This document shows, piece after piece, positions 1 to 3,576 of a stretch of 39,268 nt of DNA (the stretch's first letter is position 1; every line of letters starts with the position of its first letter). The position numbers and the translations under genes were made by a program. The stretch spans positions 1 through 39,268 of the forward strand of contig NCHB01000014.1 of assembly GCA_002281755.1 (NCBI GenBank), read 5' to 3'. Origin of the DNA: Sulfurovum sp. 16-42-52. GTDB lineage: Bacteria; Campylobacterota; Campylobacteria; Campylobacterales; Sulfurovaceae. The notes beneath the pieces were generated by a model. That model saw nothing but the letters and a program-made list of their open reading frames with translations, ran no database searches and was not told the origin of the DNA.

Positions 1-98
1 AAACTGTCCGAATACTAATCGGCTAGCTGTCCGACACAAAAACGGCTGGCTGTCCGAATACTAATCGGCTGGGTGTCCGAATGGGTCCGGCGTGAGCA
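1..98. mobile_element. Partial transposon end with 23-bp tandem repeats (possibly IS21 family)
   Basis: Three and a half copies of a 23-bp unit run head to tail from position 4: units begin at 4, 27, 50 and 73, each opening with CTGTCCGA (the last with GTGTCCGA). Copies one and three are identical over 21 bases; the second differs in its centre. Each unit holds an inverted CCGA...TCGG or CCG...CGG. Read on the minus strand, the likely outer boundary is TGCTCACG at 98, so the element would begin with 5'-TG. Multiple short repeats inside the ends and a terminal TG are known for IS21-family elements. The family call is inference, because no transposase gene and no second end lie in the window. 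The element interrupts the neighbouring reading frame. Confidence 0.45.
4..90. repeat. 23-bp direct tandem repeat array, about 3.7 copies
   Basis: Unit starts are at 4, 27, 50 and 73 with an exact 23-bp period. The constant parts are the opening (C/G)TGTCCGA and the closing CGGCT(A/G)G; the 7-8 central bases vary in the second unit and the fourth is truncated after about 18 bases. There is no spacer of independent sequence between copies. They look like binding sites for a protein (a transposase if the element call is right). Confidence 0.85.
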
Positions 99-313
99 AG
101 TAAAGCTATAGCCTCTTTAATATCATATGAAAGACTGGTCTCATCTAGTAAATATTTTTGTATCATACCATCAGTTGCAAAATAAATATTTTCATCTATA
201 GCTAAAAGTTTGAATATCTCCCCTAAGGTTCCTGTTTTTTCTAAAATCGGTCTTGCCTTATCTTGTATTGCAGGAGTCATGTCCTCAAATTCTGGTAGTT
301 CTATATGTGCCAT
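23..313 (-). pseudogene. Carboxymuconolactone decarboxylase-like protein, truncated by the transposon end
   Basis: The reading frame starts with ATG at 313 behind an AAAGGA ribosome binding site. About the first 72 residues look native: an acidic N-terminus, then the helix ending LGEIFKLLAIDENIY, then KEAIALL. In the CMD/AhpD-like fold the next element would be the redox Cys-x-x-Cys helix, which is absent. Instead the frame runs into the repeat array and stops at 23, so the last 24 or so residues are translated transposon sequence. It is the third gene of the operon after the two YeeE/YedE halves, 28 bases downstream. CMD-like proteins are often peroxidase or decarboxylase relatives working with thiols. 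Without the Cys pair this copy should be inactive. Family assignment is by resemblance of the N-terminal half only. Confidence 0.6.
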
Positions 314-340: not shown

Positions 341-937
341 TTATTTTTCTTTGAAATCTGCAGGGTCTTTATACTCTATAGTGGGAAGCAAATAAGCAGT
401 CACTAAAAGAACTGTGCTAAAAATGATTACAATGAGTAAACTATGTCCTTCAAAAAAATCAACCACTCTGAGTTTACCAAGGTTCGGTCCCGTAAATTCA
501 TTTATCCATGGATAAGCCAGAGTGAATACTAATCCTCCGAACATTCCGCCAATTACTCCTACAAGAGCATCAACTCTACCTTCTGAAACCGAAACAAAAA
601 AGGCAGAAGGGCATTTACCCAGTATGACCAAACCTATGCCAAACAATATTCCTCCTATGATGAGTCCACCTAGTATGACAGGTTTAACATGAAAAGTTGC
701 ATAGCCTGCCTGAGTTAAAAAATAAAAGCCAAGACTAGATAAGGCTACAGTTGTCATAGCCATTCTTGGTACCAATGTGTCTTCAAATATCATAAAACCA
801 GCCATTTTTTCAAACTTGTCAAGTCTGGAGTATAATATAATAGCACCAAATAAAAATCCTATAAGTAAAACAGTCCATACAGAACCATGCCCTTCATTTG
901 CAACTATTGCAAACATCTTTTGAATACTCTCTATCAT
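341..937 (-). CDS. YeeE/YedE-family membrane protein, C-terminal half type
   Basis: A 198-residue integral membrane protein with about five hydrophobic segments (near residues 18-36, 60-80, 85-112, 125-147 and 165-187). The segment around residue 108 carries the Gly-Lys-Cys-Pro-Ser motif, and the following GVIGGMFGG stretch is typical of the YeeE/YedE (sulphur transport) family. Full-length relatives such as TsuA move thiosulfate across the inner membrane using conserved cysteines, and this Cys fits one of those positions. Here the transporter is encoded as two half-proteins, as in the PmpA/PmpB arrangement. The ATG overlaps the upstream gene's stop as ATGA (937-934), so the two are translationally coupled and probably form one transporter. 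The actual substrate is not shown by sequence. Confidence 0.8.
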   Translation of the reverse strand: MIESIQKMFAIVANEGHGSVWTVLLIGFLFGAIILYSRLDKFEKMAGFMIFEDTLVPRMAMTTVALSSLGFYFLTQAGYATFHVKPVILGGLIIGGILFGIGLVILGKCPSAFFVSVSEGRVDALVGVIGGMFGGLVFTLAYPWINEFTGPNLGKLRVVDFFEGHSLLIVIIFSTVLLVTAYLLPTIEYKDPADFKEK

Positions 938-1446
938 TTTTTACAAACCTTTTTTTTATAAAAGAATCGACCAGTTATGACTCCTGTGCCTAAAGCGACT
1001 ATCACAAAAATAATGCCACTAATAGCTAATTGACTTCCTCCTGATAAGATATGTCCCGCATTGCAACCACATGCCAATCTTGCACCAAAAACAAGTAAAA
1101 ATCCAGCGATAAAGCTCCAAATCATACGAGACTTAATTGACTTATTTTTTCTCTCTTTCCAAAGGGTTGGTATATAGCTAATATGAAAAGTTTTAGTTAC
1201 AAATATTGACATAAAAAGCCCTCCAAAAAATACTCCTATGAGCATTACTCCTTCCCATGCTCCAGATTTTTCTATCTCTTCTACATAGATGTGGTTTTGA
1301 GAATCCAATCCAAAAAGAATTGTGGAAAGGTAAGCCATTCCTGTTGATGCACCAATGGGTCTATTTGCACCAAAACTTGAAAAACTAAAATAAAAAAGAA
1401 GGCTCATAAATATTCCACCAACCCACCAAGGTATCTGTTTAGGCAT
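934..1446 (-). CDS. YeeE/YedE-family membrane protein, N-terminal half type
   Basis: Start chosen at the ATG at 1446, which has an AAGGAG site 8 bases upstream; an in-frame ATG at 1497 lies inside the operator/promoter and is unlikely. The product is 170 residues with about four membrane segments. The third contains GARLACGCNAGH, matching the GARLAxGCxxGH signature of YeeE/YedE sulfur-compound transporters, with two cysteines (CGC). It is first gene of a three-gene operon with the C-terminal half (4-base overlap) and the truncated CMD-like gene. Transcription starts from a TATAAT on the minus strand (1501-1496), and a palindromic operator follows immediately, so control by the divergent MerR-type regulator is expected. 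Import of thiosulfate or a similar sulfur compound is inferred from family. Confidence 0.8.
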   Translation of the reverse strand: MPKQIPWWVGGIFMSLLFYFSFSSFGANRPIGASTGMAYLSTILFGLDSQNHIYVEEIEKSGAWEGVMLIGVFFGGLFMSIFVTKTFHISYIPTLWKERKNKSIKSRMIWSFIAGFLLVFGARLACGCNAGHILSGGSQLAISGIIFVIVALGTGVITGRFFYKKKVCKK

Positions 1447-1467
1447 TTTAAATACTCCTTGTGTTAA

Positions 1468-1492
1468 TAACGTAAAGTTTAACTTTACGTTA
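1468..1492. promoter_or_regulatory. Perfect 12-bp palindromic operator for the MerR-type regulator
   Basis: Two perfect 12-base arms, TAACGTAAAGTT and AACTTTACGTTA, are separated by one base. The palindrome begins 4 bases downstream of the minus-strand -10 box of the YeeE/YedE operon and covers its predicted start of transcription. It lies at about -50 to -25 relative to the divergent regulator gene. A 21/25 identical copy lies at 2239-2263. The position over the start site suggests repression rather than the usual MerR activation from between -35 and -10. Confidence 0.75.
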
Positions 1493-1495
1493 TGC

Positions 1496-1525
1496 ATTAT
1501 ATGCTATAATTCTTACATAAAGTTT
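1496..1525. promoter_or_regulatory. Back-to-back -10 boxes and a third operator half-site
   Basis: A TATAAT on the minus strand (1501-1496) serves the transporter operon and a TATAAT on the plus strand (1505-1510) serves the regulator; only three bases (TGC) separate them. Three bases downstream of the plus-strand box, at 1513-1525, TTACATAAAGTTT matches one arm of the palindromic operator in most positions. Such a half-site over the regulator's own start suggests autoregulation. The -35 elements are weak on both sides. Confidence 0.55.
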
Positions 1526-1538
1526 AAGAGGATTTCTA

Positions 1539-2216
1539 ATGGAATATAAAATATCTGAATTGGTAGCAAAAACGGATGTGCCGAAATCTACTATCCTTTA
1601 TTATATAAAAGAGGGATTATTACCTCAAGCACATAAAATAAAGTCAAATGTGCATCGCTACAGTAGTGAACATGTAGAGCTGATTGGATACATTACATAT
1701 ATGAAAGAGAATTTTGGCACTACGAATGAAGAACTCAAAGATGTACTGCAAAACAAAAATAAATCTTTTTCCACATCATTTAGCATGATCACGCCATTAA
1801 TGAACACCTTAAGTGCCATCTCACAAGAAAGTAATCATTACACTAAAGACGCTTTTATAGCGGAATTTGCTGTAGATAGTGAACTACTAGAGAGACTACT
1901 GAATGATGAAATTCTCATGCCAATAAATGATAATGATTTTACAGAAAAAGAAGCTTCAATAATGAAACTTGTAGGTTATTTCAATGAAGTAGGTATTGAA
2001 TATGACATACTTAAACTTTATGTTTTTCATGCCAAAGCACTCAGTCTACTTGAACATCAAATACAAACAAAACTCTGTGATGTTAGAAATGATGAAAACT
2101 TCTCTGTATTATGGAAAATTATTTTTGGAACACTCTTTAATGCTAAGGAATATATCTTCAATAGACAAACCTATAAAGCATTTTTTTCTACACTAAAAAG
2201 TGAAATATTAAATTAA
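1539..2216 (+). CDS. MerR-type transcriptional regulator with two HTH-like modules
   Basis: A 225-residue protein whose residues 3-70 form a clear MerR DNA-binding domain: YKISELVAKTDVPKSTILYY followed by the wing and the helix pair ending near LKDVL. Residues 101-160 appear to repeat the same layout (YTKDAFIAEFAVD..., LNDEILMP, then a helix ending YDILK), so the protein seems to hold two tandem MerR-like modules instead of one plus a coiled coil. It has a single cysteine (residue 180), so a classical multi-cysteine metal site is unlikely. The gene has its own TATAAT at 1505-1510 and an AGAGGA site before the ATG. It is divergent from the YeeE/YedE operon and upstream of the exported protein gene, both of which carry the matching operator. 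The inducer is unknown; a sulfur compound is the natural guess. Confidence 0.85.
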   Translation: MEYKISELVAKTDVPKSTILYYIKEGLLPQAHKIKSNVHRYSSEHVELIGYITYMKENFGTTNEELKDVLQNKNKSFSTSFSMITPLMNTLSAISQESNHYTKDAFIAEFAVDSELLERLLNDEILMPINDNDFTEKEASIMKLVGYFNEVGIEYDILKLYVFHAKALSLLEHQIQTKLCDVRNDENFSVLWKIIFGTLFNAKEYIFNRQTYKAFFSTLKSEILN

Positions 2217-2233
2217 GTATAAGGGTCACATGA

Positions 2234-2263
2234 TACAATAACGTAAAGTATGACTTAACATTA
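2234..2263 (+). promoter_or_regulatory. Promoter and second copy of the operator before the exported protein
   Basis: An extended -10 box, TGATACAAT, ends at 2239. A 25-bp sequence starting at that base (2239-2263) matches the operator at 1468-1492 at 21 of 25 positions; its left arm TAACGTAAAGT is identical and the right arm is degenerate. As at the transporter promoter, the site follows the -10 box directly. A ribosome binding site AAGGA (2271-2275) and ATG at 2282 follow. Confidence 0.65.
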
Positions 2264-2281: not shown

Positions 2282-2623
2282 ATGAGAAAGATTAAAAAAC
2301 TTAGTTTCACTGTTGTAAGTATGCTGCTTGTAAGCACAATTTTACCAACAGTTTCGATGGCAGATGCAAAGAAAGGTCATAGACTCTATAAGAAAAAACT
2401 TCAAAAAAATTGTAATTTTCCAGGTTCAATTTTTGCCAGAAATCATACACAGGATGAATGGGAAAAGATTAATGAAGATGGATTGTTCAAAGAAGAAACA
2501 AAAAAAATATGCCCTCAAATAGATATAGATAAACTCAATGAAAAACAGTGGAAAGATATCTATGATTTTACATATAAATATGGAAAAGGTGGAGAGATCC
2601 CAAATGGATGTGATCCAAAATAA
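2282..2623 (+). CDS. Small exported protein with three cysteines, cytochrome c-like start without haem motif
   Basis: A 113-residue protein with an N-terminal signal peptide (KIKK, then a hydrophobic stretch from residue 8 to 25, with likely cleavage after VSMA at residue 27). The mature part begins KKGHRLYKKKLQKNC, which resembles the start of small class I cytochromes c (G-x-x-L/I-Y...C), but there is no CxxCH, so it should not bind haem covalently. Cysteines are at 44, 77 and 110. The segment TQDEWEKINEDGLFKEE is strongly helical and charged. It is probably periplasmic. The operator copy in its promoter links it to the YeeE/YedE genes, so it may bind or present a sulfur compound to the transporter. 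Similar proteins are, to my memory, common in Campylobacterota and often loosely labelled cytochrome c; function unknown. Confidence 0.65.
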   Translation: MRKIKKLSFTVVSMLLVSTILPTVSMADAKKGHRLYKKKLQKNCNFPGSIFARNHTQDEWEKINEDGLFKEETKKICPQIDIDKLNEKQWKDIYDFTYKYGKGGEIPNGCDPK

Positions 2624-2650
2624 AACGCTGTATTAAAAAGGTATAAATAT

Positions 2651-3048
2651 ATGAAATTAATTAAAAAAAAATACTTTTAACAATATTCAACACAATAACA
2701 TATGCACAGAGTTTTTATGTGTTCAGCTGGGTAGACAGTTATGATACCATCGTGGCAAATATGTCAACAAAAACACAAAAATAGTGTGAAGATATACAGT
2801 CACTGATGCAAAAGATGTCATAAAGAGATAGGTGTAAATATAGAAGGACACATCCTTCTCGTGTGCTTGTGTTTGTTATTTCTGATGTTTCTATAACACT
2901 CAATTTAGATAAAGACAGCTATCCTAAACAGTTTACTAATACACGTTTTACACCCATTATTTATATTGTAAACTCAACGACGGAAAAGATAGAGCATAAG
3001 TTTGTAGGGCACAGCGCTAGAGATGAGTTTTTACATCTCATAAAGTAA
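2651..3048 (+). pseudogene. Decayed exported thioredoxin-fold protein
   Basis: Pieces of one ancestral protein appear in different frames. An ATG at 2651 starts a lysine-rich signal peptide that breaks at a run of A. After a frame change the text reads TYAQSFYVFSWVDSYDTIVANMSTK and stops at a TAG near 2782. A third piece contains Cys-Lys-Arg-Cys-His (codons from 2807), a CxxC redox motif. The last piece (2863-3048) reads ITLNLDKDSYPKQF...TRFTPIIYIV...KFVGH, which fits the C-terminal half of thioredoxin-like proteins with the cis-proline loop. Several frameshifts and stops make it non-functional. It directly follows the sulfur regulon and was probably its thiol-disulfide partner. Confidence 0.6.
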
Positions 3049-3199: not shown

Positions 3200-3232
3200 G
3201 TAATTTAGGGGAATAAATCCCCATGAAATTAC
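3200..3232 (-). terminator. Hairpin just downstream of rnpB
   Basis: GTAATTT (3200-3206) pairs with AAATTAC (3226-3232), and GGGG (3208-3211) with CCCC (3219-3222), around a seven-base loop. It lies about 10 bases past the predicted 3' end of the RNase P RNA on the minus strand. The downstream minus-strand sequence is T-rich but has no long T run, so termination is plausible rather than certain. The bases 3049-3199 show nothing I can name. Confidence 0.4.
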
Positions 3233-3239
3233 AGGAGCA

Positions 3240-3570
3240 ACGATAAGCCGGGTTTTGTCGTGGGTAGTTATTTATCTAGGCGTAGTGTTGCCAGTACGCT
3301 CAAGCGAAGTATGAGTGCTGAGTAAACAGCGCGTGAGACTTATACCATATACTTCTTGCTGCGAACAGGGTTTACCTGGCTACCTATGTTACCATAAGCA
3401 CCGGTGGGCTCTTACCCCACCCTTTCACTGTGACCACCGAAGTGGCTACCTACTTTCTGTTGCACTTGCCCTCAGATTACTCTGGCCATCCGTTAGATGG
3501 AGTCCCGTCTCACTTGCAGCCCGGACTTTCCTCTCGTGACCTAAGTCACCAGCAACTACCTGTTGCACCT
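3240..3570 (-). ncRNA. rnpB: RNase P RNA
   Basis: Read on the minus strand, the conserved GAGGAAAGTCCGGGC of the RNase P RNA core lies near its 5' end (around 3520-3535). The GGTAAGAGCCCACCGG region is present around 3400-3415, and the 3' end carries ACAAAACCCGGCTTATCG (3242-3260). This is the bacterial type A catalytic RNA that removes 5' leaders from tRNA precursors. A TATAAT on the minus strand at 3582-3577 places the start of transcription near 3570. Ends are estimated to within about 10 bases. No protein gene is credible inside it. Confidence 0.92.
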
Positions 3571-3576
3571 GTTGAA

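Follow-up and report, generated by a model that had tools for sequence, protein, structure and literature searches.

The window analysed here, a stretch of 39,268 nucleotides from Sulfurovum sp. 16-42-52 (contig NCHB01000014.1), carries a gene for a MerR-type regulator between genes of the YeeE/YedE family and a gene for a small exported protein (EXP). The majority of well-studied MerR proteins are activators. An earlier note on this DNA had proposed a repressor, with palindromic sites placed over the start of transcription of a small sulfur regulon. The question raised by this locus is what the palindromes are for, which protein reads them and which signal is sensed. In our reading, the regulator is a non-canonical MerR-type autorepressor that acts at two operators and is released by a sulfur signal. 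We give this reading a probability of roughly three in four.

Two palindromic operators were found in the window (Table 1). Both the perfect palindrome (O1) and its imperfect copy (O2) were present as the earlier note had described them, and the first base of O2 is the final base of the TACAAT box. The number of matches to the degenerate operator pattern expected in the 39-kb window was 0 (100 shuffles). In the whole genome (1,987,317 bases), AANNTWAAGTNNNACTTWANNTT at 0 or 1 mismatch was matched by O1 and O2 only. A relaxed pattern reached nine further places, all with two mismatches, and the total of a control pattern was identical. O1 and O2 are the sole two strong sites of the 2.0-Mb genome. 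A third site had also been claimed, a half-site at 1513-1525 (+). Ten of its 12 bases match here, but they are kept only in relatives with 90-92% identity. Across 37 loci, the best half-site score 3' of the regulator -10 box was 6.6 versus 5.9 ± 0.85 in shuffles, at varying offsets. With no conservation beyond the closest relatives, this site was dropped from the system.

Table 1. Features of the locus, in window coordinates; all promoters are predicted from conserved -10 boxes.
Feature	Position	Strand	Description
AhpD/carboxymuconolactone-decarboxylase-like (CMD) gene start	97..313	-	about 72 codons; cut off by repeated element at contig end
YeeE/YedE half 2	341..937	-	198 aa; Pfam Sulf_transp 65.4 bits, E 8.1e-18
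YeeE/YedE half 1	934..1449	-	171 aa from conserved start; Pfam Sulf_transp 58.0 bits, E 1.5e-15
Operator O1	1468..1492		25-bp perfect palindrome, 12+1+12 = TAACGTAAAGTTTAACTTTACGTTA; 23-bp conserved core 1469-1491
-10 box of divergent YeeE/YedE-CMD promoter	1496..1501	-	TATAAT; 4 bp before operator core
-10 box of regulator promoter	1505..1510	+	TATAAT, extended: TGCTATAAT; O1 over its -35 region
TAAG element	1512..1515	-	10 bp upstream of divergent -10 box
Regulator	1539..2216	+	225 aa; MerR N-terminal DNA-binding domain and ~125-aa helical C-terminal domain
TAAG element	2220..2223	+	10 bp upstream of EXP -10 box; columns conserved 80-100% in 20 loci
-10 box of EXP promoter	2234..2239	+	TACAAT
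Operator O2	2239..2263		21/25 copy of O1; abuts -10 box of EXP gene
EXP	2282..2623	+	ORF for exported 113-aa protein; homologs behind operators in cis and in trans

Regulator relatives were drawn from named genomes and from 175 genomes of the same family. Homologous loci without a conserved palindrome had been named beforehand as evidence against the proposal. Of the 40 orthologous loci whose upstream region could be read (Sulfurovum, Sulfurimonas and Sulfuricurvum), 38 kept the palindrome before the regulator gene, at regulator identities of 45-100%. The consensus is a 23-bp palindrome, AACGTWAAGTnnnACTTWACGTT, and its distance to the regulator start codon is 37-84 bp, mostly 45-54. Of the two exceptions, L012 has identical arms and a centre shorter by 1 bp, and in L005 foreign DNA whose end reads TTAGAGGTGCCC has been inserted between the two -10 boxes, so that the operator and the regulator gene are separated. 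In the genome of L005 (G122), the operator and an AhpD-like CMD gene were observed on another contig (L107), behind the other end of an element of the same kind. After this insertion with TTAGAGGTGCCC ends, the operator had remained beside the CMD gene and the regulator had been split off.

A second palindrome was present in 20 loci, about 700 bp past the regulator start and directly 3' of its stop codon. The mean column identity was 0.80 for O1 versus 0.32-0.37 in the non-promoter (left) flank, and 0.83 for O2 versus 0.35. The two arms also changed together, with 37 two-sided changes versus 27.9 in shuffles. None of 500 shuffles equalled this value, and the signal was lost when the register was slid. 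Such correlated arm changes are as expected of a site read by a symmetric dimer. The palindromes belong to a real, strongly conserved and genome-specific module of predicted regulatory function.

To link the operator with its reader, a sequence-only model was built from 51 sites and run over the 175 family genomes. Strong operators (E about 0.004 or better) were found in 25 of 25 genomes that hold an ortholog (identity 60% or higher) versus 1 of 150 genomes without one (Fisher p 2e-29, uncorrected for shared ancestry). The one genome with a strong operator and no ortholog (G015) has it before a gene for a 1136-aa fused membrane protein, of the kind that adjoins a related MerR paralog (30-34% identical). 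Because of this co-occurrence, and because the paralogs own a different palindrome, AGTGTAAAGTnnnACTTGACACT, it is overwhelmingly likely that the regulator is the binder predicted for the operator. The paralogs resemble the regulator over their full length (~30-34% identity) and likewise have their palindrome 5' of the gene. They differ in lacking Cys180, in their neighbour (an LplT/Aas-like membrane-lipid protein, named by eye from sequence) and in the operator position on a consensus TTGACA -35 box. In five loci of this related subfamily (L057, L058, L059, L060 and L061), AGTGTAAAGTnnnACTTGACACT was seen over a TTGACA-like -35 box, with the LplT/Aas-like protein beside the regulator gene.

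The regulator matched Pfam MerR_1 with 51.8 bits (cut-off 21.6, E 8.6e-14), and its N-terminal winged helix-turn-helix places it in the MerR superfamily. The AlphaFold2 model has a mean pLDDT of 90, and residues 1-77 gave PbrR691, SoxR and CadR as the best structural matches (Z 9-10). The C-terminal domain aligned with that of Rv1828/FtsR of M. tuberculosis over 119 residues (Z 8.1, rmsd 4.6 Å), a weak resemblance with a Z in the range where a shared arrangement of helices may suffice. The regulator also weakly matched NCBIfam FtsR; however, the identity to Rv1828/FtsR is 16%, and that protein has another function. Cys180 (codon 2076-2078), at the end of a long helix in the model, is invariant in all 40 orthologs, is the sole cysteine in 28 of them and is absent from the five paralogs examined. 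This pattern suggests Cys180 as the candidate sensing thiol, and the residue may instead be structural. Metal-sensing MerR proteins require two C-terminal metal-binding cysteines (PMC9909328), whereas here the one invariant cysteine is far from the usual loop. The ArsR fold and the two conserved sensing cysteines of SoxR, SqrR and BigR were not found either, the protein being MerR-type with a single conserved cysteine. A search for the regulator on plasmids gave no match, and the only hit in a defence-system library, where the MerR helix weakly matched mads_1, was judged meaningless.

The target genes were then compared across loci. Both YeeE/YedE halves exceed the family cut-off of 27 bits (PF04143) and fall far below the TsuA and YedE equivalog cut-offs. 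They match opposite halves of the Sulf_transp profile, which means that two genes together encode one transporter. EXP gave no Pfam or NCBIfam match. In relatives, the first divergent gene is CMD/AhpD-like in most loci, not YeeE/YedE. After the CMD gene, a gene for an exported DsrE/DsrF-like protein (Pfam DsrE 47.4 bits) often comes next, and thioredoxin-like proteins with a CPWC motif follow in several loci. The YeeE/YedE pair comes first in the window and in L006, L014 and L019. The claim that the operator controls YeeE/YedE and the exported protein was thus supported but incomplete, the divergent gene being mostly AhpD/CMD-like elsewhere.

Operators were also found in trans in five genomes (G137, G138, G097, G089 and G090), always before YeeE1-YeeE2-DsrE and/or EXP, and in three cases two of them stood back to back. 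Five family genomes have a YeeE1 of the close subtype (75-100% identity), each time with an operator beside it; the many YeeE copies with 50-57% identity are another subtype. The trans operators and the pairing of YeeE1 with the operator indicate that the operator follows its target genes when they are moved.

At the contig end, window positions 1-96 are the end of a repeat-rich element with copies of CTGTCCGAATACTAATCGGCT, found near letter-for-letter in the ends of contigs C42, C3 and C34 of the same genome. A mobile element has probably inserted here, which broke the assembly as well. The remainder of CMD and a close DsrE gene were sought elsewhere in the assembly and not found. On the other side, 3' of EXP, positions 2640-3048 hold an apparently decayed copy of the thioredoxin-like CPWC protein of the relatives, in which the ORF at 2863-3048 shares 36% identity with a portion of the L013 CPWC protein. 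Positions 3228-3571 (-) encode the bacterial RNase P RNA class A (Rfam RF00010, 254.3 bits), an ordinary housekeeping gene.

Our results suggested that this is probably a small gene set for sulfur import and handling that is kept off until a sulfur compound is sensed. The nature of the signal is read from gene context, namely YeeE/YedE, DsrE-like and CPWC thioredoxin-like proteins, and peroxide or disulfide stress would be an equally good reading of the AhpD-like partner. The same repressor design might then answer to peroxide, disulfide or electrophile stress and not to a sulfur growth substrate. The commonest first target is AhpD/peroxidase-related (NCBIfam TIGR01926 E 1.3e-21, below cut-off; AhpD core domain above cut-off), and the CPWC proteins that follow it in several loci also fit. 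However, YeeE/YedE and DsrE-like proteins are sulfur-trafficking families, and in the five genomes genes of the DsrE and EXP types are present in every trans cluster, accompanied by YeeE/YedE in three and by CMD in none. We regard the stress signal as unlikely, yet as a serious competitor to the sulfur signal.

The placement of the operators relative to the predicted promoters bears on the mode of action. In all 38 loci, a gap of 3-6 bp (mostly 4) separates the divergent -10 box from the operator core that follows it. For EXP the gap is 0 in 19 of 20 loci, a TAYAAT-like box ending exactly at the operator edge. The regulator promoter is different: the palindrome is upstream and ends 12-15 bp before an extended -10 box (TGnTATAAT or GGGTATAAT), and therefore covers the -35 region. 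One geometry at three promoters, as the earlier note had it, was thus confirmed at the two target promoters (operator 0-6 bp past the -10 box) and not at the regulator promoter. Its observation that the divergent -10 boxes are three bases apart was reproduced, and the two boxes are close together in nearly all loci. The two promoters thus face and overlap each other, so that a single bound dimer could close the pair. The position 3' of the predicted -10 boxes in the conserved loci supports a repressor-type operator over the start of transcription. Also supported, as predictions, are autoregulation and a regulon that is small and self-contained.

A dual regulator, which represses the two target promoters but, bound near position -37, activates its own gene, would also make use of this placement, since the O1 centre is ~37 bp before the likely regulator start, near a class II activator position. 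This is improbable: the regulator promoter has a strong extended -10 box, so that an activator is probably unneeded, and the paralog palindromes of the same kind on a consensus TTGACA -35 box fit repression. Quite improbable is a classical MerR activator, which twists promoters with over-long spacers and switches its targets on at the signal. The typical MerR N-terminal domain agrees with it, and long-spacer activation is typical of the family (PMC9909328). But the palindrome lies between -35 and -10 at none of the three conserved -10 boxes, being 3' of the -10 box at two promoters and 12-15 bp before it at the third; the classical layout, a 19-20 bp spacer that holds the operator, was not found at the predicted promoters of the 38 loci, and the C-terminal metal-site cysteine pair is absent. 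A role as RNA hairpins at the 5' ends of the target transcripts, for attenuation or RNA stability, is very hard to defend: O1 and O2 are both inside the predicted transcribed region of the targets, but the innermost loop would have only 1-3 bases, 28 of 51 sites have a mismatch at one inner pair, there is no T-run downstream, the same motif occurs outside the regulator transcript, and motif presence tracks the gene of a DNA-binding protein across genomes.

A further element was observed at the target promoters. TAAG (WAAG) precedes both target -10 boxes by exactly 10 bp and is conserved across loci. TAAG-N10-TANAAT occurs twice in the 39-kb window, exactly at both target promoters (0.57 expected; 9 of 100 shuffles reach two), and at the EXP promoter the TAAG column identity was 0.80 versus 0.35 for the next ten columns. 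An extra half-site for the regulator is not supported, because the distance to the operator differs between the two promoters (-10-to-operator gap 0 versus 3-6). TAAG was also compared with the Campylobacter -35 motif TTTAAGTnTT, which was reported with a 19-bp spacer to the -10 box in cj0183 (PMC3824568); the position does not fit.

For the autorepressor, we infer the following course of binding, repression and release. A regulator dimer would bind the 23-bp consensus. At O1, one dimer would shut two promoters, since it would cover both the initial bases of the divergent YeeE/YedE-CMD(-DsrE) transcript and the -35 region of the overlapping, face-to-face regulator promoter. At O2, it would bind directly behind the EXP -10 box. 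Release from DNA would follow when the regulator is modified, perhaps at Cys180, by a compound of reduced sulfur, for which sulfane sulfur or polysulfide is the likeliest candidate. The transporter, the exported sulfur-handling proteins and more regulator would then be made.

Such a placement had been thought undescribed for MerR proteins, which did not hold. HnoC, McdR and CvkR (at the tnsB promoter, PtnsB) are MerR-type repressors reported with palindromes over the start site and the -10 box (PMC9938897), so placement over the start of transcription is not new. The palindrome position at the predicted promoters agrees with their mode, in which the palindrome overlaps the -10 box and start site. 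They share the MerR-type DNA-binding domain with our regulator, whose repressor mode is predicted from operator position. In contrast, their targets concern nitric oxide signalling, cell division and transposition and include no sulfur genes, their operator sequences are unlike those here, and assays of CvkR argued against autoregulation (PMC9938897). In logic, the system also resembles the sulfane-sulfur repressors SoxR/sHdrR-SoxT1A of Hyphomicrobium, where a repressor gene adjoins YeeE-like transporter genes in a small reduced-sulfur regulon and cysteine chemistry is the sensor (PMC10451225, PMC11582611); here Cys180 is only a candidate. Those repressors belong to the unrelated ArsR class (~124 aa, two sensing cysteines), whereas ours is a 225-aa MerR-type protein with one invariant cysteine. 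SoxR was reported to be confined to Proteobacteria (PMC10451225), and is thus not in Campylobacterota.

In the open-access literature searched, we found no MerR persulfide sensor and no MerR protein that controls YeeE/YedE or DsrE genes in Campylobacterota, which leaves their absence unproven. As far as this literature shows, the regulator subfamily, the operator, the regulon and the candidate sensing residue Cys180 are new. A bolder form of our reading is less likely than not: this MerR subfamily may sense sulfane sulfur or polysulfide via Cys180 and control sulfur import and handling in Campylobacterota, in the role that the ArsR-type SoxR has in Proteobacteria, with one dimer closing two face-to-face promoters and TAAG marking the regulated promoters.

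Sulfur-oxidising Campylobacterota dominate hydrothermal vents and redoxclines. How they sense reduced sulfur is largely an open question. The locus supplies a concrete regulator, a defined operator, a short target list and a candidate sensing cysteine, and its regulator is probably a further MerR-type protein that acts as an ordinary blocking repressor.
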